Shown here piece by piece: positions 33,026 through 63,276 of a DNA stretch of 64,000 nucleotides; the first letter of the stretch is position 1; the number at the start of each line of letters is the position of its first letter. The notes under the pieces are model-generated. The model was not told the origin of the DNA. It saw only the letters and a list, made by a program, of their open reading frames with translations, and made no database searches. This DNA is from Polychytrium aggregatum (Eukaryota > Chytridiomycota > Chytridiomycetes > Polychytriales), in assembly GCF_025602895.1 (NCBI RefSeq), contig NW_026516307.1, forward strand, positions 1-64,000, in the 5' to 3' direction. A program made the position numbers and the translations under genes.

Positions 33026-36000
33026 TCATTTCTGTTCCTGAGTCGCTGGCTGCTCGCTCGCGTCTCCAGCCACTTTCTCAGGCCGGATGGCCTGCTCCGG
33101 TGTCAGATCGCTCTCCGAGTCGATTTCGTGGAGCGCCGGAGCTTCGACGATCATCTCGGTATGCACCGAGCTGCGAAGATTCGATCGCTTGTAGGACGAC
33201 GCCAAGTCAACCCCCGCATCCGACTCCTGGGCCACCTCCGAGCTTCGTCCGGAGTAGTCCGAGATCCGGGCCTCCCGGTATCCAACTGCCCCAAACGAGT
33301 TTTGCTTGAGGGGGCTGGCAATCATCGGTGTTGTCGCTGAGCTTGCGATATAGGGCGGCAGCGGCGGCCGAAATCCGCTCGAGGGCATTGGTGTGGCCAT
33401 TTCGCTATTGCCAAAGCTGGGTCTGGTTCGTTCAACCGGCAGCATCGGCACCAAGTTCGTCAGTCACCACTCCAAACTCAGCCACAGGACAGCGTCCACC
33501 CCAAAAAGAAAAGCCCGCATCGCACGCCCCAGAGGCATCTATCGCTGTTGTGAGCCGAGTCACTTACTTGGTCCCGCTGATCGGCGTGATGACGCTGGTC
33601 ATGCCTCCCTCGTGCGAGAAGCAAAAGCCCGTATGGGGCGTCTCCGTCAGCCCGTCGGTGCCCATGAACACGATGGAGGATGCCTTCATTTGCTTGTCGA
33701 GCTTGTTGATGGACATGGTCGAGATAGCGAGTTTCTTTTTGGACGCACCGGTCGCCCGCGGTGTTCCGGCCAGATCGGCTCGGTTCCGCGGCGACTTGTT
33801 CGAGATCGAGACGGACCGAGCGAGCGAGTCCGTCTGGATGTTGATGCCCATCACGCTCTTGTTCACCATTGGCGAACTCAGCTCCAGGGTGGATGCAAAC
33901 CCATCGGGGGTTCTCAGCGGTGTCGGCGTCGTGGCGCTGGGTTGACTCTGTCCAAATGGCGTAAGGTTCGACGGCGTCGAGTCGGATTTGACAAACTGCG
34001 ATCTTTTGGTCTGAAGCAAAGTGAGCGGTGCCGGCCCCTTATGCTTGGCGCTCGGCGAGCTGATAGACTCTCCGATGGCCGTATTTGTAATCGGCTGGGG
34101 CATTTCAGCAGAGAGCTTGGATATGCGTGCGGCCTCTGGTCCAAGAGCCGCTTCTTTGGGCGCGACGGAATCGTCCAAAGCGGCCAGGGCTTCCGGCGCA
34201 CCGAACGGCACTTTGATGGCACCGGATGTCTCTTTGATGACGCCCGATGGATCCCGCATGATGCCAGACGACTCCTTGATCATGCTCGAGGGCTCTTTGG
34301 CCAGAGCCGCCAGGTCTTTCTGGATGCTCGTCGAGTCTTTGACCAGCGAGGACGTCCTGCGTGACATCACGCCATCGCTTGCTGCTCGACTTTGAATTCC
34401 TGTGGCCGACGAGACCTCCTTGCGCATCGACGGCTCGCTTCCTTCTCTGTATGCTTCTCCACCCGCTGGCTGCGGCTCCTCGACGGCCTTGTCCTTGACG
34501 GCCTTTTCTTTGGCGGTCTTCCGTGCTAGCGTCTCCAAAAGCCCTGCCGAGCTCTCCGTGATCTTGGCAAGCTGCTCATCTGACACAACATCGTCGACCT
34601 CTGCGCCGTCAGCATACCGAGCTTCGATGTCCAAATCAACGACGTCGCCGCGTTTCCATAGATACGCCTGGATTTCCTGCACGATGTCGGTATCCGAAGG
34701 CCAGAATAGCTGCTGAATGAACTTGAATGTGATCCGGGGCAGCAACGCCGTTGTGACCATCAGAACCAGGATGGCATAGAAGTTGAGCTGGCACCACAAG
34801 TACTGCAGCTGCCCAAATGACGTGCTGTCGGGGTTCGTGGTGTCCATGAGCGCGTACACCAAGAATATCCCGAGTGAGCCCAGCAAGCCGAGAAAGGTGA
34901 CAAAGGTCCAACCGAAAGTGCTGAGGCCGATGTAGATGTTGGTGATGATCACCGCAGCCACACCCATGATGCTCCCCATCGAGTCATGGTCGCCGACGTA
35001 GCCCTCGGAGTTGTTTGTGGCGTCAAAGTACAGTAGAACAACAAAATAGTAGCACACAATCGACTGGTAGGCGCCATCGAATATGTAGCTCCAGAAACGC
35101 TCCATGGTGTAGAGCGACTGACGGATTCCCTTCCCGTAGAGTTGTGGCACCTGCATTGCCAGAGCATCGTTGACGTCTTGGTCAAAGATCCCGAGGAACA
35201 TGTTTGGCAGCACCGTGAAGAACGTGTTGAAGAACATGCCGACAGTAAAGTTTGTGATGTAGTCGGCAGTGAATCTGTGTCCAAAGGCGATCGACGCCGA
35301 TAGATAGCCAGATGAACAATATTAGCTCCACAGCCATGGTTAGCGGGACAGACGACGGTTAGTGGGTGGGTGGCTGCCAGCAGGCAGAGCACCCGTGGCA
35401 CTCAAGTCGTGAGGTGTTTCCGAATCCTGCAGCCCAGAGGCACTTCCAAGTCGTTCCAGGCGCCGCATCTCGGAGATAGGATGCCGCCCCCATAGACTTA
35501 CCCGCAGTCAAACTGGTACCAAAACAAGATGAAAAGCCAGACGACGTTCTTGTAAAAGTACTGAAAGGCCATCTCAGAGGTTCGGACGTATGCCCACCCG
35601 CCATGCACCAGTAGCAGCCGCGACAGAAACCGAAACTGGGCGATTGCATAGTCGCTCGCCATGACTGCCTGTAATCCTTCCTTGCCACTGATGCCGATGC
35701 CGATATCGGCCTCCTGGATCATGCTGACGTCGTTTGCGCCGTCTCCGATGGCAAGACACATGGCCCCCTGTCGATATTCACGTCGAAGCATGTCAGTGCA
35801 CGGACTTGGACTTGGGTTTGGGTTTGGGTTTAGGCTCGGAAATCCCGCGACTCTATCGCGAGCACCCATGCAGCTATAGTGAACCTCGCTCTATCATCGG
35901 GGACGTGGACAAGGACACGTACCAGTCCTGTTCGCACGAGCGAAACCACCTTGGCTTTCTGGAGAGGACTGACGCGGCAGCAAACGACCGCACAGCAGCG

Positions 36001-41058: not shown

Positions 41059-42471
41059 ATGACCGTCGACTATACAGGCGATCTGAGCCAGTTTGTCAGC
41101 ACCTCCATTCAGAAATATGTTCTGGGCAGCCACACCCTGCGTGTAGACTGCATCGCGGCAAGACTGGATCCGCCAGCGCAGCTATTTGAGGAACCATCCA
41201 CGTCGCAGCAGCTGGATCGGCTGGTGCTCATCTCCAAGGTCGGTTCGTCTCCGCTGATTGTCTTTGGCATGAAGGTCTCCGAGTTTGTTGTCTGCGAGAC
41301 CGGGTCCGACTCGGCTCGGTCTGTGCATGCCTATATCGAGAAGATCGACTCGACCGGATTCTTCGACCACAGCCTTGCTCGCTCTGAGGCCTCGGCGGGT
41401 CAGGATTTCTATTCGATATCCCGGTCGACGCTGTTTGGCTACATCCAGCACCTCTACGATCGCTACAAGTCGCAGGCTCCGGAGATTTGGGTCCACACAT
41501 TCGCTCGCTCGATGCCTGAGTACCTGTTCCCAGACTCCAAGCTCAACCCTGGAAAGTACCGCGCCAGTAATCCCGGCGCCGGCCTCGTTCGGTGGTGGAA
41601 GTCGACTCTGGACCAAGCCATGGCCAAAATGGATCCGCAGCCGATATCCGAGGCATTCTGGCTCGTCCCCGGCGAGGGCGAGGCGCTCGCCCGCCGCTTC
41701 TTTGAAGCCCCCGGATGTGTTCTCAAATGGAACTGGGGGCTGCCTTGGCCAGCACATGGGTCCGCGGCAATGCTGGTTCCCCGGTTCCCGGACGACCCGA
41801 AAGGCCGCATCATCGCCGATTCCCTGAGCACTGCAGCCAAACCATCCGGAAAGCCAACGCTGACGGTCAAGTCCCTGGTCAACATGCTCGAGTGCTCAGG
41901 CGAGTCGTCGAACCAGACCACTTGCTATTTTGTGGTGCGCATGCAAGCCGCCCACAACGCCGACGAGCCGAGTTGCGGTATGGATCACTCCAGAGAGGGA
42001 TGCACCGACTCAAACCTGTGCGATCACAAGGCATTCGAAGCCATCACCAAGGAGCTTGGGAGTGGATGCTACAGTAGCCAACAGAATGCAGTTCAATCCA
42101 GCGACCGCCTGATCAAACTGTTCCGCGAGACCCCGGGCACCACATGCTCCCATATTCGCATCGAGAACGTCCCCAAAGCAAAGGGTTTGGATGAAACTGC
42201 GGTCAACTCAAGCACAGCCCCAGCAACGACAATCACCAGTCTTCAGGGTTTGATCAAGAAGAAGAGCAAAACGGCGCCAAATACTGTCGTAACCAGCAGC
42301 ATTCCCGACGGAAGTGCAACATCCTCAATAGCGAGCACCTCCGTTGTAGAGTCCCGTTCCAACGATATCCAAAGCCTCGTGAAGCGCAAGCAGCGACCGC
42401 CAATGCAGACCAATCCGGACAGCGAGCCAGCCAAGCGCATGAAGCCTGGGGCGGGCAATGATTGCGAGTAA
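41059..42471 (+). CDS. RTT109: Histone acetyltransferase Rtt109 (H3K56)
   Basis: Fungal acetyltransferase that, with Asf1/Vps75 chaperones, acetylates H3K56 (and H3K9/K27) on new histones. Single exon, 470 aa. Family landmarks are in order: AYIEKIDSTGFFDH (core acidic strand), WVHTFARSMPEYLFPDS followed by NPGKYRASNPGAGLVRWWKS, FWLVPGEGE, and WNWGLPWPAHGSAAMLVPRFPDDPKGRIIADSL. The segment 250-340 has several Cys/His (CGMDHSREGCTDSNLCDH) and sits in the region that follows the HAT core; whether it binds metal is unknown. The tail (360-470) is Ser/Thr-rich with two KKK/KRK clusters (LIKKKSKTAP, LVKRKQRPP), likely NLS or histone-contacting. Lack of introns is unusual in this window. Confidence 0.92.
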   Translation: MTVDYTGDLSQFVSTSIQKYVLGSHTLRVDCIAARLDPPAQLFEEPSTSQQLDRLVLISKVGSSPLIVFGMKVSEFVVCETGSDSARSVHAYIEKIDSTGFFDHSLARSEASAGQDFYSISRSTLFGYIQHLYDRYKSQAPEIWVHTFARSMPEYLFPDSKLNPGKYRASNPGAGLVRWWKSTLDQAMAKMDPQPISEAFWLVPGEGEALARRFFEAPGCVLKWNWGLPWPAHGSAAMLVPRFPDDPKGRIIADSLSTAAKPSGKPTLTVKSLVNMLECSGESSNQTTCYFVVRMQAAHNADEPSCGMDHSREGCTDSNLCDHKAFEAITKELGSGCYSSQQNAVQSSDRLIKLFRETPGTTCSHIRIENVPKAKGLDETAVNSSTAPATTITSLQGLIKKKSKTAPNTVVTSSIPDGSATSSIASTSVVESRSNDIQSLVKRKQRPPMQTNPDSEPAKRMKPGAGNDCE

Positions 42472-51613: not shown

Positions 51614-54600
51614 TCAGGTTCGCTTGTGGCCGCGAATAGCATTGTATGTCGTTGTGCTTGTGCGCGAGAGGTGTGGGTGTGTCTCCACGAGACTGAGGTT
51701 CGATCGTGCGACGGACGTTCGCTCCAGCTGATACCCCGAGAGGCCCAGCGGAAGCACCTTTGGGGAAGCTTCCTGGGACCGGAAGCAGATGAAGATTCCG
51801 TTGGGAATGAGGCGGATGATGGCTCCCAGCGGAATCGAGATGAATCCGATGACGATGCAGGCCGCCCATTGCACCCCGCTCAAAGGCGTTGTCTGGAAGG
51901 CCACGGCACCGAACTGGACAATGAGAGCCTGGCCAATGGCAATGAAGATGACGATGCCGATTGCGATCGGGTTTCGGAAGAAGTTTCGGAAGACGTTGAG
52001 CTGGTTGTCAATGCGGCAGCAACTAGGGGAGGCGAGAGCAAATTTTGTGTGGCCAACAGAGTGAGGAGACGGATGGGGAACAGATGGATGGAGACCAGAG
52101 AGCAACAGAGTATTGTGACAGTGAGTGCGTGCTGCCCAAACGTCGAGACGGATTTCCTCATGTGCGCCACTGCACCCACTGACAGCGAGATCAACGCTGT
52201 CCAATATGCCAACTCCGGCCCGCAGACCCCCCCCTTCTCTCTCTTACTTGATCAGGTTGAAGATCTGCAAGAACACAAAGGTGTTGAAGAGAATGGTCTT
52301 GAGAACGACTTTCTCGGCGCTGATGATGGGATAAAGTGGGTCCGTGACCAAGACCGAGGAGTTGAGGATCCCGCCAGCATTGCGAAGCTCTGGCAGAGTG
52401 AAGAGCGTGGGCCCCGCGAGCAAAATGGAAAGATTGACAGCGATCTGGAAGCCCGACTGCAACAGAATCATCTTGCACATGCTGATGTTGATCAGCGATG
52501 CCGCTTTGCTGTCCGGATTGCGATCGAGCAAGTCGCGGCTTGGTGTTTCCGTGGCATAGACCAGGGCAGCAAGGCTGTCCATGATCAAGTTGACCTGTGT
52601 GCGTGGTTGCCGAGAATATGGTATAGTATGTTAGCGACGAAGCCTCACCACAGTGGCTGCTCAGATGCCCAAGCGCAGGCTCAAGCAGGCTTGATTTCTC
52701 ACAGTGCTCTTGGGGCGGGGAGAAGTCTTTGCTTGTTGGTTTTGCTCGCCATTGGGTGCATCGGCGCGGCGCAATGACATACCCAGAGCAGCTGCACGGC
52801 TGTCAAAGCCGAGCCCTCGTTTGCATCCATCAAACTACTTATGAACGACACCACGACTGCAGTGATGTTGACCGTCAGCTGGAACATGATGAACTTTTTG
52901 ACGGCGTCGTTGACGCAGCGACCCCACTCGAGAGCCTTGACGATGGACGCAAAGTTGTCGTCCATCAGAATAATAGACGAAGCCTCCTTGGCCACTTCGG
53001 TGCCGGCGATGCCCATGGAGAAGCCAATGTCGGCCATCTTCAGGGCCGGACCATCATTCGTGCCGTCGCCCGTGACTGCGACGGTCTCGCCAAGGTGCTT
53101 GAGCCTACCGACCAGCAGCTGCTTGTCGGTCGGGCTTGAGCGAGCGAGCACCTGGAGTCGCGGCAGGATGGCGTCCATCTCTTCCAGACTCAGGTTGCGA
53201 AACTGCGCCCCCTCCATGATCACCCCGCCGCGACAGTAGATGCCACACTGGCTTGCAATTGCCTTGGCGGTGATGATGTTATCGCCGGTGACCTGCAACA
53301 CAGACGATCGATGATGTAGAGATGCAAGAGCGATGTAAATCAAGCGAGCACCAACCGTCTGCCCGTGCTCGAGGGGGGGCAATGTGATTCCACTTGACGA
53401 AGGTGCAAAAGCAGAGTCGCTGAAAAGTCATACCATGCGAACAAACACCCCAGCGCGCTGGCAGTCTCGAACAGCCTCCTTGACACCAGGGCGGAGCGGG
53501 TCCTCGATTCCAACGATAGAGGTGCATATCAAATCGCATCCGCCCAGCTCGGCCAGAGCGAGGGGATGGGCCAGAACCTCTTCGTCTGTCAGAGGCGTGT
53601 CTTGGAACTCAAGGTCGATAGTGCCGTCGTCGATGGGGATGATCACACCGCCGTTTTCTTCGATCTGTCGATCAATCTTTTGCTTCCATTCCTCATGGCG
53701 GGCCTCTCGGATCCGTTCACGAATCGATCCGCTGATCCAGGAATCAAACTCTGGCTTGGACCACTCGCGGTAAGCCATGCAGATGGTTCGCAGCGAGAGC
53801 TGTGCATAGCTTTTGATCAGGCGCTCCATGTCGTGGATGTGGTTCTCGTCCAGAGGCTCGATCCGTGGGGGCTCCACGTCGTCCAGTTGACTCAGGATGG
53901 CAATACGGCTGCAGTACTTGAGCACAATCTCCGAGGCACCCTTGACAAAGACTCGGTACACAACGTGATCACCGTCCTGCGCCATGATCAGCGTCGTCAT
54001 GGACTTGCGCTCGGACGAGAACGGGTAGACGTGCACGATTCGGTTGGCGGGATCTGCTCTGAGCTGCGAATAGTCCGAGCCCATCTTGACAATCCAGTCG
54101 AGCAGTGCGGTCTCGGTCTTGGAGCCCACAAAGCCCTTCTCGCCCGTTTTTTCGTTGTAGCCCTCAAACGCAGACGAGTTTAGAGCGGCGTTTTCGATGA
54201 CCAGCCGAAGCAGGCGAGCACCATCCAGCCCACGAAAGCCAACGCCTTCCACCTGGCCAACCCGGCTGGGAATGTCCTTGATATCGGCCTTGCCAAAATG
54301 CAGGTTACATCCGATAACGCCTCGGACAACAGTCATTTTGTTTTGAGTGAGAGTGCCTGTTTTGTCGGAGCACACCGTCGTTGCGTTCCCCATGGTCTCG
54401 CACGCCGAAATGGTTCGAACAAGGTTTCGGTCCTTGAGCATCTTGGTTGTGGCATAGGCGAGTGCCAGAGTTACGGCCAGCGGCAGACCCTCCGGCACGG
54501 CCACGACGACGATTGTGATGGACGAGATCAGGATGTTGATGATTGCAGTTGCTGTCATGGTGGCGTTTTGCTGCCCTGGGGCAGAGCCAAACCCGGTTGT

Positions 54601-56216
54601 TGACGTGACGGTGATGAAGTATTTGATGAGCAGACAGAGGAGCATCAGAAGTGCTGTTGCAGATCCAAGTTTGGCAATGTTCTCGGTAACGCCGTCAAGC
54701 TTTATCTGAAGCGGGGTCTCCTCAGTCTCGGTTCGCATTGCTGATCGCGGCGCCGGAGTCGATAGTTCCACAGCGGCACAAAGAGTCGCAGGGAAGTGCA
54801 GCAGATCACAGAGTAAGGAGAGTTCCAAGTTACTCATATGCGCGGTATGCATTCGGAGCGCAACGGCAAGTCGCGGAGATTCCTGCGATCGTGCATCATA
54901 GCCTGGGCTTCCTCAGCATCTGCCCTTGTCGTACCCATCATGATCCTTCCGAAAAACGAGTTGGCTCCAACACCCGTGACGATATAGCGGCCGGTGCCTT
55001 CGAGGATTTTGCTGCCGCTGAGAAGTAGACAGTCGCCCTGCGGCGACTTTTTGATGGCGTCACTTTCGCCCGTGGCCGACGATTCGTCTGACTTGAGCAG
55101 ACCGCTCAAAACCAAACCGTCGGCGACGATCACATCGCCGGGTTCGAGGACCAGGATTTCTCCAACCAGTATGCTGCGCCAAAGACGAAAAATCATCCCC
55201 AGCGGGCCCAAAGATGGATCGACGTCAAAGATCTGAGCGAGTTGTCTACGAAGCCAAGTCGATGCGCCACGGAAAGGACGGACTTAAATCTATGTATTTG
55301 CAGTGGGATACCTGTAAACCGAAATGAGCTTGGTCTCTCCTCCGCGGATGGCCTGCGAGTGGAGGTGAATAAACCGAATGTCAGACTGAGGCTCCGACAC
55401 TTTATATCGCAGCATTCGAGAGCAGTGGCGAGCCATCTCTGGACGAGCCCTCTCAACCAGACGGCTGTCCATATTACCTTGACGACCTTGTCGTCCTTTT
55501 GGGCATTGAGCTTCCGGAACTGCTTCTCCTTCTGGTAGTCGTTGATGCTCGCGGCCATGACGACAATCACGACAGCAACAAGGATTGCGAACCCCTCGAT
55601 CCAGTGGGTCATACCCTCGGTGTTGCTGGGCGAAAAGTCCTCGTACAGGCCAACGCCAAGCGACACGACTGCAGAGATGGACAAGATGATCTGTGGGTGA
55701 AGAGGCGCATCAGGAGGTGAGTGCTATGCCCTCGAGACGCTCTGTAGACGTCTTTTCAATTTGATTGCATCAGCCCAGGACACGGCTGGATCATCCCCGA
55801 GTCGAAATACGCGACAGCGCGCGGCAAATAATGCATGATATCCGATGTATGGTCTTCCCACCCAATACACAGGAATGCCAGACACAATCGATCGTGTGCC
55901 GACTCACCATGATCTTCTCTGACAGCGCCGCAAGCATCAGCTGGCCGAGGGACTTGGAGACAACGGGAGGAAGGGTGTTTTCTCCAAACACGCGCTTCCG
56001 CTCGTCGACAGTGCTGGAAGTAATACCCTGGCTCACATCGATCTTGAGGGCCGAGACCACCGCTTCAATGCCGCCGAGGGTCTGCAGATGCTCTGGGTTC
56101 TTGGAGGGATTGAAGATGGTGCTGAGGTCGGCGGCAGACAGCTCAAAGGTCATTGACCCGAGCGGACTGGGTATATCGGCCGAGTCCTTCAGCTCTTTGT
56201 ATGGCTCAACCTTCAT
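51614..56216 (-). CDS. PMC1: P2B-type Ca2+-ATPase (PMCA/Pmc1-like)
   Basis: Pumps Ca2+ out of the cytosol into vacuole or across the plasma membrane. Start ATG 56216 ([17 protein letters not shown]); N-terminal [20 protein letters not shown] then [11 protein letters not shown]1-2 are [21 protein letters not shown] with [16 protein letters not shown]. The actuator domain holds [13 protein letters not shown] and [15 protein letters not shown]4 has [20 protein letters not shown], phosphorylation [18 protein letters not shown], the nucleotide domain [13 protein letters not shown] and [15 protein letters not shown], and the hinge [22 protein letters not shown]5-10 include [28 protein letters not shown] and MQAFC-equivalent segments. 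The C-terminal tail after TM10 is only about 60 residues, with no obvious basic amphipathic calmodulin site. About ten introns. Confidence 0.94.
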
Positions 56217-57165
56217 GTGGGAGTCGGCTCGGGCTATACTGGCTTTGGTTCTGGTCAGGCAGACCGTCGCGCAGCAGGCAAGTCAGTGGGTTGGTATGGC
56301 TTCAAGATAATATGGCCGCGTGGCTAGAACAAGCGCCTATGTGCACCCAGTATTCAGAGGTTCTCAATGAGGGCAAAGGAAATTGACGAAAGGGAGAGTA
56401 GGCAAATACAGTGCAAAGATGAAATTGCTTTGGAGTTGGTCAAAATGGGTCAGATAGATGCGAGATTGTCCCGGATCGCGCGACAAGACCAAGGACAGGC
56501 CTTAATTTCAGCGAATGACTGAGGGCAGGAAGTCGTGCTCGCTGGGGGGGGGGCTTTTTCTCCGATCCTGTGGGATGGTGGGCGGACGGCGGCTCCTGGC
56601 AGAATCGTCGGCCGGGACTCTGAATCATGAGCGCGGCATGATCACCTCCAAGATTGTATGTGGCCCGCGGGAAGCAAGAACGAGGTACGACGCTGTGCAT
56701 CAGTCGCACCGCCGGCGAAACGATGCCGGATGCTGCCGGACGACCGGGTGTCGCTGCAGGACCCAATCGCGCATATCAATTGAGCGAGGGGCATCGCAGC
56801 CTGGGCCAGCATAGGATCTCTTGGCTTTGGGGCGCAATATCGAGAACATGAAATGCACTTCCATATCAAAGCAATACCGGCGCTGTCCACACATTTTTCA
56901 AGCTGCTGTGCAGTCAGGCTCGTCAAGGTCTTGAATGACGCTCCTGCGACTTTCCCCGCAGGCTACTAATGTGGTGAACAACACCGAGGAGCGACTGCAC
57001 CAACTCTGCATGAACTAATGGACGAATTACTGAAGGAGCTAATGTACTCACTGACTGCACTGATCTCATTGATCTCACTGATTTCACTGATTTCACTGAC
57101 TGCACTGACTGCACTGACTGCACTGACTGCACTGACCACCGCGCGAAGGGCCAAACGGACAGTAG
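56217..57165. other. Intergenic region with a 9-bp array
   Basis: About 950 bases between the PMCA start and the stop of the F-box-like gene. It includes a 9-10-bp tandem array at 57050-57136 and a G9 run near 56550. Open frames are short and featureless. Contains the PMCA promoter. Confidence 0.5.
57050..57136. repeat. 9-bp ACTGACTGC / ACTGATTTC array
   Basis: About nine units: ACTGATCTC, ACTGATTTC twice, then ACTGACTGC-type units (CACTGACTG) four to five times, directly 3' of the F-box-like gene. Confidence 0.9.
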
Positions 57166-58851
57166 CTACTCCTGGTAGATGACGATGAGTCCAGGATGGA
57201 ACTGGCGCACCGCATCGATGACTCCCTGGACGTATTCATTCGTCGCCGTTTTCGCGTCGACTGCGATCGTTTCCAGCTCAGGAAGCCCCGAGAACGAAAT
57301 GCAGTTTAGCAATTTCGGCGTTATGGACGGCGGAAGCTCCAATCTCTTCAGGTCCGAGAGCTGTTTTGGGAAGTTCCGGAATGACTTGATTTTGGTGCAC
57401 TTGAGGAACCCAAAGCACTCGATGTTGCTCACAACGGGCGGGAACCCGTGCAGATTCTTGAGCCCTGGGGGGAATATCAATTTGGAGATCCGCCCGCTGA
57501 AGGTTCGCGGCCAGCCGCTCATGTCGTGCATCTCGGTGCACACGGACATGTCCAGGCACTGGATCCAGTTTGTGATTCCGGGAAACCCGTCCATGCTTGT
57601 CAGAGAGGATGGCAGCGTGATCTTCTCGAGAGATCCCATCATTATCGGAAGACCTTGCAGATTGGTGAGCTGTTTGACGTGTCGCATCAGCAGGCTCGTG
57701 AGTAGAGGAACGTTAGGCGGAAATCCAAAGAGATTCGTGACGTTGGGGGGAATATTGAAGGTTTCCAGGCACCAGAAGCTTGCAGGCAGCCCCATAAGGG
57801 ATGTCACTCGAGCGCAGTGATCGGTGTGGAGGCGCTTGAGTTGTCTCATGGATGCCGGAAATCCAACGAACGACTCGACACACTCTGGAAGCTTGAGGAC
57901 CTCGAGAGCCGGCATGGAGGGAAAGTCGCCCCAGTCCCACACATGGCCCTGCGAGTCGTTTGTGATGGCGCTGAGGGTTAGGACCCGACTCATGCGTCGT
58001 GGCCATCCGACAATGGACGAGAACGTGCAGTTGCCCAACGAAATGCTCTGGACTAGATCGTTCTCGAGGAGGAATCGCTCAAAGGGCAGCAGGCGGAGCA
58101 GCTGCGACTGGATAAAGAGCGGGTGGCGCTTGGGACGGACGATAAGCAGGGTGACGGGTCTTTCGGGGCCTATATCGTCGAGCAGGCGGGCGCTGTCGAG
58201 GAACGAGAATGTGGTTTTTGGTCGAGCCTCGAGCGAGGCAAGACTGGGAAGGTTCAAGGACGCACTTGCGAATCGGCTCGGCATGGCGTTCTTCTCCTTG
58301 CAAATTCTCTGGACTCGGAGCCGCATGGCGTTGTTCAAGCATAGAGCATCCCACATCTTGAGCTCGGTCTGGTGTGCGGCCAGGGAGGGCGGATACGGAT
58401 AGCCGTCCTGGTCCCGCTGCCGACTCAAGAAGCAAACGAGGCCCTTGAGTATCTCCACCTCGGTGGAGACTGGAAGCCCGAGGCCGCGGAGACAGCCGGG
58501 CGCGAGGGCCATCGAGCGACACAGAGCCGGAATCCAGGGCGACCTGTCGGTGGCCTCAAAGAGCAAGTGCAGAGCCTTCGAGAGTCGGGAGAGTCGGGAG
58601 AGGGAGACCAGGTCAAGACGGCCGAGGATGCCCTCTCGAACAGTACTTTCGAAGCCCGGGTTGCAGAGCACCTGGACGAGGCCACCGGCTCTGCCCAAGG
58701 CCGACGTTGCAGGCTCGCTGGTCTCGGAGGCAGCATACGGGAGCGGGGTCTCGCCGGACATGGACAGGAATTCAGCCTCATAGTCTCTATCAAGGTATTC
58801 CTCGGCTCCGATGCCGGGTTCATCATCGCTGATATATGGCGAATACTCCAT
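57166..58851 (-). CDS. F-box-like / leucine-rich-repeat protein
   Basis: Single exon, 561 aa from ATG 58851 (MEYSPYISDDEPGIG); the frame also allows a start at 58935. The acidic N-terminus is followed by EGILGRLDLVSLSRLSRLSKALHLLF (about 75-100), an F-box-like helical signature. From about residue 270 a series of 22-24-residue leucine-rich units carries a conserved (G/N)(F/L/W)P, for example SFVGFPASMRQLKRL, SLMGLPASFWCLETF, NLFGFPPNVPLLTSL, NLQGLPIMMGSLEKI, SMDGFPGITNWIQCL and NLHGFPPVVSNIECF. F-box/LRR proteins recruit substrates to SCF ubiquitin ligases, but F-box identity here is weak and the function could be other scaffolding. LRRs are confident. Confidence 0.65.
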   Translation of the reverse strand: MEYSPYISDDEPGIGAEEYLDRDYEAEFLSMSGETPLPYAASETSEPATSALGRAGGLVQVLCNPGFESTVREGILGRLDLVSLSRLSRLSKALHLLFEATDRSPWIPALCRSMALAPGCLRGLGLPVSTEVEILKGLVCFLSRQRDQDGYPYPPSLAAHQTELKMWDALCLNNAMRLRVQRICKEKNAMPSRFASASLNLPSLASLEARPKTTFSFLDSARLLDDIGPERPVTLLIVRPKRHPLFIQSQLLRLLPFERFLLENDLVQSISLGNCTFSSIVGWPRRMSRVLTLSAITNDSQGHVWDWGDFPSMPALEVLKLPECVESFVGFPASMRQLKRLHTDHCARVTSLMGLPASFWCLETFNIPPNVTNLFGFPPNVPLLTSLLMRHVKQLTNLQGLPIMMGSLEKITLPSSLTSMDGFPGITNWIQCLDMSVCTEMHDMSGWPRTFSGRISKLIFPPGLKNLHGFPPVVSNIECFGFLKCTKIKSFRNFPKQLSDLKRLELPPSITPKLLNCISFSGLPELETIAVDAKTATNEYVQGVIDAVRQFHPGLIVIYQE

Positions 58852-59694
58852 AGCGATCGAGGACGCGGGAGGGGCTTGCACGAAGAGCAACGGCAAGTGC
58901 GTCCAAGGCCAAGATGGAGAAATAGAAATACGCACCGGTGGCGGCTTCTGCGGGAGGTGGCGAGCGACGCAACATGGCAGCGGGCTGGTTCGACAGCGGG
59001 TGTTGCTCCACAGGAACGATGAGTGCTGGTGTGGCCAAGCAGAGCCGCAAAGCTCCGGGCGAGGCGGGCTGATGCGGCTGGAGGACCGTCCCGCTCATAT
59101 TCCCTTCCCTTCCTCGGCCTCCGATTGCCCAACACCCCCCCCCACATGGTGCTCATGGCAGATCGCGTGGGGCAAGGTGGATCGCCGCTTTCCCCATGAT
59201 CAAGATCTGTTCGAGTCCTTCAAAACACTCTGCGAATAGGGCACGTCGCATGAGCGATCTGCGAGACTCGGTGTTCATCTTGGTGGCATATTTATGGGCG
59301 GATCGTCGAAACAGCATCATGCCATCAATCCGCCCAAGATAGAGCAACCGTTGTAACTTGGAGGAGAAGGAGACGAACGGCGGTGTCGGGTTTTTGTACC
59401 TCGGCGGCGTGGCGCAGGGCGATCATGCGCAGCCACTCACGTGGCGGGGCGGCGTTTGACACCCACAGAGCAGCCACACAGCAAACGGCCGTGGATGATG
59501 GAGGCGCTTGAATTCCACCGAAAACAGGAGAATGTGCTATTTCGTCGCGCGAGCGATGTATATGGGCATGATACAGATCAGGATGGCGCCCGCATTGGAT
59601 GCCCGAAACGACGAGCTCGGCGCTCGTCCCAAATCCTGGCGAGGCTGTACGATGCTGCGGGACTCGGATTGACGGTTCTCCGGGGGGGGGTCCC
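58852..59694. other. Intergenic region upstream of the F-box-like gene
   Basis: About 840 bases between the F-box-like start and the PPCDC stop, both on the minus strand. G/C homopolymers at 59680-59690 and 59140-59148. No credible gene. Confidence 0.45.
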
Positions 59695-61665
59695 TCAGCC
59701 TTCCAAGATCTCGTAGATTCTCTGGGCGACTCTGTCGACGTTTTCCATCGCACCGATGCCTAGAACAGCACGTTTCGACCCAGGCAGATCAGCAAGTGAC
59801 GAGGAACGCGCGGCCTCGCGACACAATCAAGCAGCAACGGCAGCGGCCTAAACGACGTAAGCCGCAACGAATGCGACATCCAAACTGGCGAGCGAAGCGA
59901 CTCTCACCTGTATCGCCACACGCCAGAGTCTTGGTAATCGGTGGAATAATGATGTAGCTTGCTTCGGCTGCGAGAACATCCAGATGCTTTTGAGTGAACG
60001 GATGAGTCCACATGTGGGTGTTCATAGCCGGACAAACCACCACCGGTCGACTGGGATCCCAGGCTCGCAAAGTGCATGTCTACGATGGAAGGACAGTGGA
60101 TCGTCAGCGGTGTAGTGCGTTCAAACGGCCGCCAAACTCCAACGACAAAGTAGCTCAGAAGCTGTCCGCGCCGGTCGACGATGGGTCTCCAGAGCACGAC
60201 CAACCGGCAAACAGGGGTTGCGGCCTGTCAAGACGCGCTTGGCTGTTCGAAAATGAGCCGGCCCACTCACCAGCAGATTGTCGCATATTCCAGCCGCCAG
60301 TTTGGCAAGGGTGTTGGCATCCAGCGGGGCCACAACCATGATGTCGGCCCAGTTCCGAAGTTCAATGTGCAACACGGGGTCGCCCATCTGACTCCACGCC
60401 TGCTCCAGTGTGGGAGTGGCAAAGAGAGTAACGAGTAAACAGAATCAGAGACAGGAAATCAGCTGCGGCGGCAGGGCAAGGCGGGGCGATGGCGACATAC
60501 ATTCCATTCATCCACATCGGTCACCACAGGGACAGAGATGTCTTCTTTTTTGAAGAAATGGAGCGACGGAGTGGTGGCCACGACCCGGATTTCAACAAAG
60601 TCCTGGGGGCCAGCAAATTTGGAAAGAGTCAGCGTCATGGCACTGCAACCGTGCAATCGCTGAGGCTTCCAAGCAGAGCGAGATGCAGTCCAGGCGCTGC
60701 TCGAACACTGGAGCTGGTCGCAGCACGGCAGCCGCCAACAGGCCCTGTTCGCACTGCAACTCACGCCAAAGATTTTCCGCAGCTCGTTGATCAGCATGGG
60801 CAACTTGACGGATGCCACGGAGCCTGTGGTGCCGATTAGGATCCTCTTCTTCTGTAGCATCGGCACCGAAGACAGCCCCAGCGGCTCAGGGCGTATGATG
60901 GAAAGCATCAGGGGCTTGGCCGGGCGCATGGGGTTGAGGGTGCGCTGATAACGCACGTTCGGAGGCGGATCGTGGTTGTGCTGGCCGCTGTGGATATAGT
61001 TGTAGGATCCGTCGGCCTCGACCCGGTGGATTTGCCGTGCGGGACACTCTTTGATGGTCAGGACGCCGCTGCATCCGTGGGTCGTGCATTTTCTGGAATT
61101 GCCATGCGACAAAACAAAGGCAGATATGAGAAGCGAGACGCGGGATCCGTGCTGGTGCCGAATGCAAGCCAAATGCATCTGTTGGCCGGAGCATAGAACA
61201 GGGGAATGCTGGTGGGCGACGCTCGGTGGGACGCTCGGTGGGCGGCAAAGGGTGATGGCGGCTCGATCTCAAAGGGCCGGCCGAGACTTGCTTTGTGCTG
61301 TCGGACGAGCCGTTGTTGGTATGGTTGACGATCTTGCGCAGAGCGCCACAGTCGCTGCAGACCATGACGCCGAGGCACTTTGCGTTCTTAACATAGGTGC
61401 CCGATTTGCGGGTGTTTGTCTTGGTGACCCTCCATTGCCACTGCGAGTGGTTGCAGTTGGGCGGCACGGAGCTGAAATGCAGCTGGATGTCGCCGTTGGG
61501 CAGGAGCGGGAACTCGGGGTCGCCAGCGGCCGCCGGAGCCGGCAGGATGTCCTGCAGCGAGCCGGTGGCCGACGAGATGATCGGCAGCGACTGGGCTGTG
61601 GAATGGTGCAGGGCCAGGCCAGTGGCATGGTCATGCTGGGCGTGGAAGGCCATCGGGTGGTTCAT
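59695..61665 (-). CDS. PPCDC: GCM-type zinc finger fused to phosphopantothenoylcysteine decarboxylase
   Basis: The C-terminal half decarboxylates 4'-phosphopantothenoylcysteine in CoA synthesis (FMN-dependent HFCD family; Hal3-like). Exons (minus) 61665-61292, 61092-60765, 60602-60501, 60399-60271, 60079-59908 and 59759-59695 join in phase to 389 aa. Residues 75-166 match a GCM-type fold: WQWRVTKTN, KCLGVMVCSDCG (C97, C103, C106), C127, C132, C141, and GQHNHD (H163, H165). That gives eight potential ligands for two zinc ions. Residues 207-389 are PPCDC: KKRILIGTTGSVASVKLP, EIRVVATTPSLHFF, ADIMVVAPLDANTLAKLAAG, RPVVVCPAMNTHMWTHP (substrate-clamp PAMN) and ACGDTGIGAME (active-site Cys). The two halves share one exon with no stop between. 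Intron 1 uses GC-AG (AA|GCAAGT). Size and motifs of the PPCDC part are normal. Confidence 0.88.
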
Positions 61666-61937
61666 TGCTGGGCCGGGCAAGCTGCAGGCTGGCCAGATGG
61701 GATGTGGTCGGTGGGCAAGAAAGGGCGAAAGTGGCCAGACTGTCGCCAGCCGCCAAGAGCCGGGAGGTGGCCGGCTGGCGCGTGGCCGGCCACCATGCGG
61801 CTGGGCTGCGCACGATCTGCGGGCCAATGATCTGGCGAATGATCTGGCGAATGATCTGGCGAACAGTCCGGTCAATGACCTGGCCAGCCCCAATCCACCA
61901 CCCAGCCATCCTCTCCTTCCATCCAGCCCTCTGCACC
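61666..61937. promoter_or_regulatory. Short divergent promoter between PPCDC fusion and pICln
   Basis: 272 bp between two divergent ATGs. It contains a 12-bp array (GATCTGGCGAAT, about four units) at 61812-61880. Confidence 0.6.
61812..61880. repeat. 12-bp GATCTGGCGAAT array
   Basis: Two perfect and two to three diverged GATCTGGCGAAT units within the PPCDC/pICln spacer. Confidence 0.85.
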
Positions 61938-63276
61938 ATGCCCATCCAGATCTACCAAGGCCTGCCCGAGCTCTTCTCGTCATCGAACCCGCTCAAGCGG
62001 GACTTTGATCCTTCTGTTCCGCAGCCCATCATCCGCTTCCACCACAAGAACGTCCGTCTCGCCTTCAACCCCGACCCTCCAGCGCTCTCGCTCGACACTT
62101 CCAAGAAGGGCGATCTCTATGTCGTCGAATCGTACGTTCACACACTTGTTCCACCGACCCTGCTTCTGCTCCGCACAGGAGCCCCATGATATGCGAAATG
62201 TCCTTGATAGCATAGTCGAAGCTGACCCTGCACACACTCTGTTCTGCTCCCGGATCCACAGCGAGCTGATCTGGCACGACCCCGAGAGCTCCACCTCGAT
62301 CGCCATTGACTATCCCTCGATCCTGGTGCATGCACTCTCCCGCTCCGGCGATCGAGTGGATTCGTCGCCGTGCATCTACTGCCAGCTCGATGGCGCCGAG
62401 GTCGTCGATGCCGCCGGCTATCGCATTCCCACCATCCTTCCGTTCAAAGAAGTCGAAGAGTCTGCCGATCTCGACACCGCCGCCTCTGCCCAAGCGATGC
62501 AGGTCGAACCCAGCCACGGCAACAACGCCAATGACGATGATGCTGACGAAGAGGCTGGCGAGGAAGCCGGCGACGATGACGAGTACGAAGACATGCACGA
62601 TATGCCGTGCTTCGAGCTGAGACTGATTCCCGACGATGCTACTGCACGTAAGCCAAACTCCGTGCCGCCCAGGCCGCCATTGTTTCCGTTTCAAATTACT
62701 TGCCTCGAAGGGCTCCTGTGGCACTCTGCGGATATTACTGACCTCACTGTCACCCCCCCCCGGCGGCTCTTGACTGACACTGTCTCCCGTGCCAGTTGAT
62801 AGCATCTATCTTGCGCTCTCTGAGTGTGCGTCACTTCATCCTGACAAGAACGCCGAAGAGGACGGAGATGAGGATGAGGGCGAAGGTGAGATCGATCGTG
62901 CTGACCGGCCGAGGCGGTGTCGATCGTGGACTAACTTTGTCGCTGCACAGACGGGGACGGCTGGATCTATGGTCCGAGTGATGATATCGAGCTCAGCGAG
63001 GTGGGCGAGGTAAGCGCACACCGATAACCACGAACCTGGTCACCCTCTCGCCCGAATGTGCATCGCCTTTGCGTCCGCCTCGAGACCAAACCGATCGAGC
63101 AATGCCACCGTCCGGGTGGATGTATCCTATGGCTAAGCTGTTCGTCTTCACCCACTAACCAGGCTGCCATGCGCCATATCGAGGCGGTCTTCGATGTCCA
63201 ACCCCGCAAGAAGGGCAAGCTCGATCACGAAAACCAGTTCGACGATGCTGACGGCGACGCCGATCCCAGTCGCTGA
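61938..63276 (+). CDS. CLNS1A: pICln, methylosome/snRNP assembly chaperone
   Basis: pICln binds Sm proteins and PRMT5 and organises them for methylation and snRNP assembly. Exons 61938-62131, 62262-62647, 62796-62885, 62951-63009 and 63163-63276 join in phase to 280 aa. A PH-like domain opens the protein: LSLDTSKKGDLYVVESELIWHD, SIAIDYPSILVHALSR and SPCIYCQLDG. An acidic insert follows (DDDADEEAGEEAGDDDEYED), then CFELRLIPDDATALDSIYLALSECASLHPD, a second acidic segment, and a C-terminus with DGDGWIYGPSDDIELSEVGE and MRHIEAVFDVQPRKKGKLDHENQFDDAD. All are standard for pICln, and the C-terminal acidic region is the Sm/PRMT5 contact in relatives. Start chosen at MPIQIYQGLPELF. Confidence 0.93.

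Follow-up and report, generated by a model that had tools for sequence, protein, structure and literature searches.

Gene model and surroundings of the locus

The window, i.e., the whole 64,000-nucleotide (nt) stretch of DNA analyzed, carries on its minus strand a complete coding sequence (CDS) of 1,170 nt that has no internal stop, keeps its frame at all five exon junctions, and is predicted to encode a GCM-like zinc domain joined to phosphopantothenoylcysteine decarboxylase (PPCDC), an essential enzyme of coenzyme A (CoA) synthesis in the vitamin B5 pathway. The features of the locus are as follows (window positions).

59695..61665, minus strand: whole CDS of the predicted GCM-PPCDC fusion gene, with the start codon ATG at 61665 and the last base of the stop codon TGA at 59695; 389 amino acids (aa) encoded in six exons
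61666..61937, no strand: 272-bp stretch that separates the ATG of the fusion gene from that of the divergent pICln-like gene; likely a shared promoter
61292..61665, minus strand: exon 1 (374 nt), which encodes the N-terminal end and, of the GCM-like domain, the first half (Cys97, Cys103, and Cys106), from the CDS model
61093..61291, minus strand: intron 1 (199 nt), of the GC-AG type (GCAAGT...CCAG) in the window, with GTAAGT in the other haplotype (C135:367464)
60765..61092, minus strand: exon 2 (328 nt), which encodes the other half of the GCM-like domain (Cys127, Cys132, Cys141, His163, and His165), the linker, and the start of PPCDC (Pfam Flavoprotein, 18.5 bits)
60852..60959, minus strand: 36-codon linker between the two domains (NVRYQRT...PMLQ, residues 170 to 205), with its range taken from exon coordinates and residue numbers
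60501..60602, minus strand: exon 3, PPCDC, from the CDS model
60271..60399, minus strand: exon 4, PPCDC, containing HIEL (from residue 279) with the catalytic-type His, from the CDS model and motifs
59908..60079, minus strand: exon 5, PPCDC, with PAMNTHMW from residue 328 and the start of ACGDTG from residue 364, from the CDS model and motifs
59695..59759, minus strand: exon 6, PPCDC and the stop codon, from the CDS model

Introns 2 to 5 are all of the GT-AG type, with donors GTGAGT, GTATGT, GTGAGT, and GTGAGA and acceptors CAG, CAG, TAG, and TAG, respectively. The ends that the initial annotation had assigned to the locus (59695 and 61665) proved to be the exact ends of the complete minus-strand CDS. 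The same annotation had described a single stop-free frame leading from the zinc domain into PPCDC within one exon. This description holds for the second half of the GCM-like domain and the start of PPCDC, which share exon 2 and one open frame comprising GQHNHD, the 36-codon linker, and the first PPCDC strand KKRILIGTTGSVA, but it fails for the first half of the domain, since KCLGVMVCSDCG sits in exon 1 (61665-61292), in a frame other than that of GQHNHD. Nor does one exon contain a complete PPCDC, as had been proposed: the enzyme spans exons 2 to 6, and exons 1 and 2 each contribute part of the GCM-like domain. With these corrections, a fusion is credible at the level of the gene model, the protein itself being a prediction.

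Several other features were recorded in the surroundings. On the plus strand, from position 61938 onwards, a divergent gene of several exons encodes a pICln/Voldacs domain (E value of 2.6e-30); its first intron, judged by eye, starts with GTACGT. A HAT_KAT11 histone acetylation domain (5.9e-28) is encoded at 41059-42471 on the plus strand; histone acetylation enzymes consume acetyl-CoA. Two open reading frames (ORFs) with P-type ATPase domains lie on the minus strand (33564-35237 and 53428-54852), the first of which also has a phospholipid-translocating ATPase C-terminal domain. A 589-aa ORF at 57166-58935, minus strand, gave no Pfam match at an E value of 0.001, and a short tandem repeat next to it (about 57045-57136, by eye) differs by two bases between haplotypes.

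Intron 1 differs between two haplotypes

The assembly comprises 64.7 Mb in 418 contigs, one of which (C135) carries the region again, at 99.7% identity over 9.2 kb. Matches to chitin synthase (26 at the exon level) and to the intraflagellar transport protein IFT46 (14 matches) were likewise mostly paired on two contigs, with equal or near-equal scores. Because of this pairing, we take the assembly to be that of a diploid genome in which both haplotypes were retained. The presence of chitin synthases alongside IFT46 would suit a zoosporic fungus, in agreement with the chytrid implied by the initial annotation. Between start and stop codon, the two alleles differ solely at window position 61290, where the window has GCAAGT as the intron 1 donor and C135 has GTAAGT, and both encode an identical 389-aa protein. 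The C135 haplotype is also longer by 15 bases at about position 61767, within the stretch presumed to be a shared promoter.

GC is the commonest non-canonical splice donor, and a site that reads GC in the window but canonical GT on C135 provides good support for use of this donor, although the difference may possibly be a one-base assembly error. If intron 1 is left unspliced, the two halves of the GCM-like domain fall in different frames, and translation of exon 1 in the C135 allele would end at an in-frame TAA formed by GTAAGT itself. The heterozygous donor would offer a natural test both of GC-AG splicing and of fused versus unfused product.

The C-terminal part is a complete PPCDC

Residues 207 to 385 matched the Pfam Flavoprotein family with an E value of 1.1e-33 and 116.5 bits (cut-off, 22.7 bits), and the PPCDC part matched human PPCDC (1qzu; 3.7e-63) and Arabidopsis AtHAL3 (1e20; 7.2e-57) almost from end to end. 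All of the expected PPCDC motifs, namely, HIEL from residue 279, PAMNTHMW from residue 328, and ACGDTG from residue 364, occur in one chain. The moonlighting of yeast Hal3 as a phosphatase regulator had been invoked as a parallel in the initial annotation. That parallel did not hold up: we found no V[TSK]F anywhere in the protein, and its C-tail ends in YEILEG and is not acidic, so that both the yeast Hal3 motif and the acidic tail that would signal a Ppz regulator are missing here.

The N-terminal part resembles the GCM domain beyond the candidate zinc ligands

The zinc domain extends over residues 56 to 168. The spliced protein matched the Pfam GCM model (PF03615) at model positions 8 to 130 of 140, with an E value of 0.0024 and a score of 18.3 bits, which misses the curated cut-off of 25 bits; the exon 1 frame alone scored 15 bits, and splicing thus lifts the match. 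In an hmmscan of the spliced protein at E values up to 10, in which filters drop most weak matches, GCM and Flavoprotein were the only families reported, without WRKY or FLYWCH. Mouse GCM1 (1odh) came top in a search of 177,635 PDB sequences, with an E value (0.19) that is non-significant taken alone.

We then compared the domain with shuffled sequences. The local alignment to the 1odh segment scored 73, which was matched by none of 3,000 full shuffles (z of 8.6) and by none of 3,000 shuffles in which Cys and His were kept fixed (z of 7.4), indicative of a similarity that extends beyond the ligands. For the global alignment, the corresponding counts were 0 of 3,000 (full) and 1 of 3,000 (Cys/His-fixed). 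Taken separately, the first half of the domain was equalled in 1 of 3,000 shuffles and the second half in 21 of 3,000, the latter being weak. Eight Cys/His ligand candidates occur in GCM order (C97, C103, C106, C127, C132, C141, H163, and H165); seven of the eight fall in the same columns as in 1odh, and C127 is offset by two residues. In 1odh, the corresponding Cys and His are the zinc ligands. The domain is taken here as a divergent relative of GCM, uncertified as a family member. At the level of the gene model, the earlier proposal of a fused gene and of the identity of both domains is supported.

A resemblance of this kind leaves room for a fusion protein that is indeed made and whose zinc domain acts as a structural or protein-interaction module, DNA binding having been lost. 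We regard this as somewhat unlikely, although it survives best among the alternatives. Consistent with it, the alignment to 1odh retains the Cys/His pattern while much of the remainder has diverged, and a simple pattern scan yielded no convincing nuclear localization signal, the only basic triplet lying at residues 206 to 208, at the very start of PPCDC. The GCM-site consensus is ATRCGGGY, and this sequence is not in excess within the window (7 matches versus 8.1 expected by chance); none of the matches falls within 61666-61937, and the nearest one lies just downstream of the fusion gene (59588-59595). What speaks against a purely structural role is that the similarity exceeds Cys and His (z of 7.4, as above) and includes Trp and Asn/Thr in the N-terminal strand as well as CLGV.VCS. 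Given that the full-length fusion protein is made, we would put binding to DNA or chromatin at about an even chance.

One protein or two

Frame continuity across the linker is by itself weak evidence for a fusion, with an open in-frame linker expected by chance at a probability of ~0.11 from the local base composition. The GC content of the linker at codon position 3 is in excess in the coding frame (29/36 versus 23/36 and 16/36; permutation P value of 0.006). Its codon score, from a simple scheme trained on 5,907 bases and applied to overlapping windows, was above that of 97.7% of local non-coding windows, and only 5.3% of 150 coding windows scored that low. Together, third-position GC excess and codon score lean toward a coding linker, short of being decisive. 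On paper, an in-phase intron of 105 nt is also possible at GTGCGT, mostly within the linker, and the fusion would be unbroken either way.

The linker is also where PPCDC might be made alone, i.e., from an internal start at Met187 or nearby, by means of an exon 2 transcript or of leaky or re-initiated translation, in which case the GCM half would serve as a leader, form a product of its own, or belong to a minor isoform. Three in-frame Met codons are available in exon 2 (60929, 60908, and 60860), and a start at 60908 (Met187) would yield 203 aa, close to the PDB chains of human and Arabidopsis PPCDC (206 and 209 residues, respectively). The chance level of frame continuity and the low codon score of the linker are likewise compatible with an internal start, as is the dependence of the common frame on splicing of intron 1, failing which the halves are out of frame and exon 1 of the C135 allele meets its TAA. 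Conversely, the third-position GC of the linker is coding-like, and the second half of the GCM-like domain continues in frame, stop-free, into PPCDC. Moreover, a purine at position -3 favors translation initiation, and the base at -3 is G for Met1 and C for all three exon 2 Met codons. An internal transcript would also need a promoter inside the GCM gene, whereas the only obvious intergenic promoter precedes the GCM half, in view of the divergent pICln-like gene located 272 bp upstream of Met1. Overall, an internal start as the source of PPCDC appears unlikely, and these sequence features suggest that a full-length fusion protein, translated from Met1, is probably made.

Copy number and searches elsewhere

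No other PPCDC was found in the assembly: the family search gave 4 matches and the protein search (E values up to 10) gave 10, all of them from the two alleles. Similarly, a search for other copies of this GCM-like domain returned 4 matches, from both alleles only. As the genome searches score the best candidates exon by exon, divergent copies may escape them, and the gene is single-copy at that sensitivity. With no second PPCDC found, the fusion gene is the sole candidate source of the enzyme that we found. The family model for PPCS (PF04127) gave no match in the genome at an E value of 0.001, for which introns or divergence are perhaps responsible, and that for PanK (PF03630) gave 8. The GCM family model, when run against the genome, missed both halves of the fusion gene itself; it returned two sub-threshold matches, on contigs C268 (E value of 0.19) and C13 (E value of 1.7), which were not counted as GCM.

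Beyond the assembly, viral contigs gave 4 pattern matches with the exon 2 query and 5 with the query for the first GCM half, none of which was confirmed. One of 16 pattern matches, in a contig labeled as a Planctomycetota metagenome-assembled genome (MAG), was a PPCDC, and tblastn with the whole fusion protein gave no GCM match in that contig, which makes it uninformative as to the fusion.

These searches also bear on whether the zinc domain derives from a mobile element, by capture of a transposase-type WRKY/GCM/FLYWCH module. Work by Babu et al. in 2006 reportedly concerns a link of WRKY-GCM1 zinc fingers with transposons, which would be in keeping with such a capture. However, no other copy of the domain was found in the assembly, WRKY gave 0 matches in the genome (in a search run without a positive control), and Pfam assigned GCM and Flavoprotein only; we therefore deem capture improbable. 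An artefact of assembly or gene modeling, to which the non-canonical GC donor in the window might point, is very improbable, as the 9.2 kb recur on a second contig (99.7% identity), there with GT at the donor site, and all five junctions are in frame.

Proposed role of the fusion protein

The explanation that we favor, with somewhat better than an even chance of being correct, is that one gene gives rise to a two-domain protein, in which a GCM-like zinc domain is joined to a complete PPCDC and would provide it with an arm for binding DNA or chromatin. The N-terminal GCM-like domain would hold two predicted zinc sites. Since one chain carries the whole catalytic set, the PPCDC half should work as an ordinary homotrimer, and each trimer would then display three GCM-like domains. 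Most likely, the gene would have originated when a neighboring or inserted GCM-like gene was fused to that for PPCDC within what is now exon 2.

The zinc domain might serve as a DNA- or chromatin-binding arm on the enzyme, or on the full-length share of it. Two uses can be envisaged: (i) CoA synthesis may be tethered in the nucleus near chromatin, where acetyl-CoA is consumed; or (ii) the enzyme may act on gene control in a manner sensitive to CoA status. A study in fission yeast (PMC3472395) reports a link between CoA and chromatin. A more elaborate possibility, which we consider decidedly doubtful, is a metabolic transcription factor, whereby substrate, FMN, or CoA intermediates on the PPCDC trimer would alter gene control or feed CoA synthesis at chromatin, with the GC/GT donor acting as an allelic switch between fused and unfused product. 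Returning to the two-domain protein that we favor, if its arm binds DNA, it would create a direct physical link of CoA synthesis with gene control, in a gene for which no second copy was found. Even if the arm binds no DNA, the architecture is unusual for PPCDC.

Comparison with known systems

Among the best-ranked matches listed for open-licence PMC papers, none described a GCM-PPCDC fusion, and no open-licence PMC paper combined "GCM domain" with "chytrid." A GCM domain fused to PPCDC is thus an architecture for which we found no description, credible as a gene and unproven as a protein.

The GCM domain is a kind best known from animal transcription factors. With the animal domain (PF03615; mouse GCM1, 1odh), the fusion domain shares the order of Cys and His (CLGV-V-C, a second Cys, a later Cys pair, another Cys, and HxH) as well as Trp and Asn/Thr in the N-terminal strand. 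It differs in that it lies below the Pfam cut-off, is joined to an enzyme, and has other spacings, namely, C-x4-C for C-x2-C and C-x2-C for C-x3-C. Among fungi, GCM-like is one of 78 retained transcription factor gene families in the table of Shelest 2017 (PMC5415576), so that fungal GCM domains as such have precedent. In contrast to the fusion gene, that table has GCM-like alone, and its combined families pair DNA-binding domains, none of them with a CoA enzyme.

On the enzyme side, the fusion protein resembles eukaryotic PPCDC (human MDS018/1qzu and AtHAL3a/1e20) along the full length of the enzyme, likewise has the catalytic-type His, PAMNxxMW, and CGD on a single chain, and differs by an additional N-terminal part of about 186 to 206 residues that contains the zinc domain. 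Yeast Hal3, Vhs3, and Cab3 similarly combine a PPCDC domain with a long N-terminal extension. According to a published account of these proteins (PMC9604783), the Hal3-type extension is predicted to be highly disordered and has a BBxxxVTF-type motif, accompanied by an acidic C-tail, and other fungi mostly lack a PPCDC extension, with exceptions such as Ustilago maydis. Unlike the yeast proteins, the fusion protein is missing the BBxxxVTF-type motif and the acidic C-tail. The same account (PMC9604783) has yeast PPCDC drawing its His from Hal3 or Vhs3 and its Cys and PXMNXXMW from Cab3, whereas the fusion protein carries the full catalytic set in one chain.
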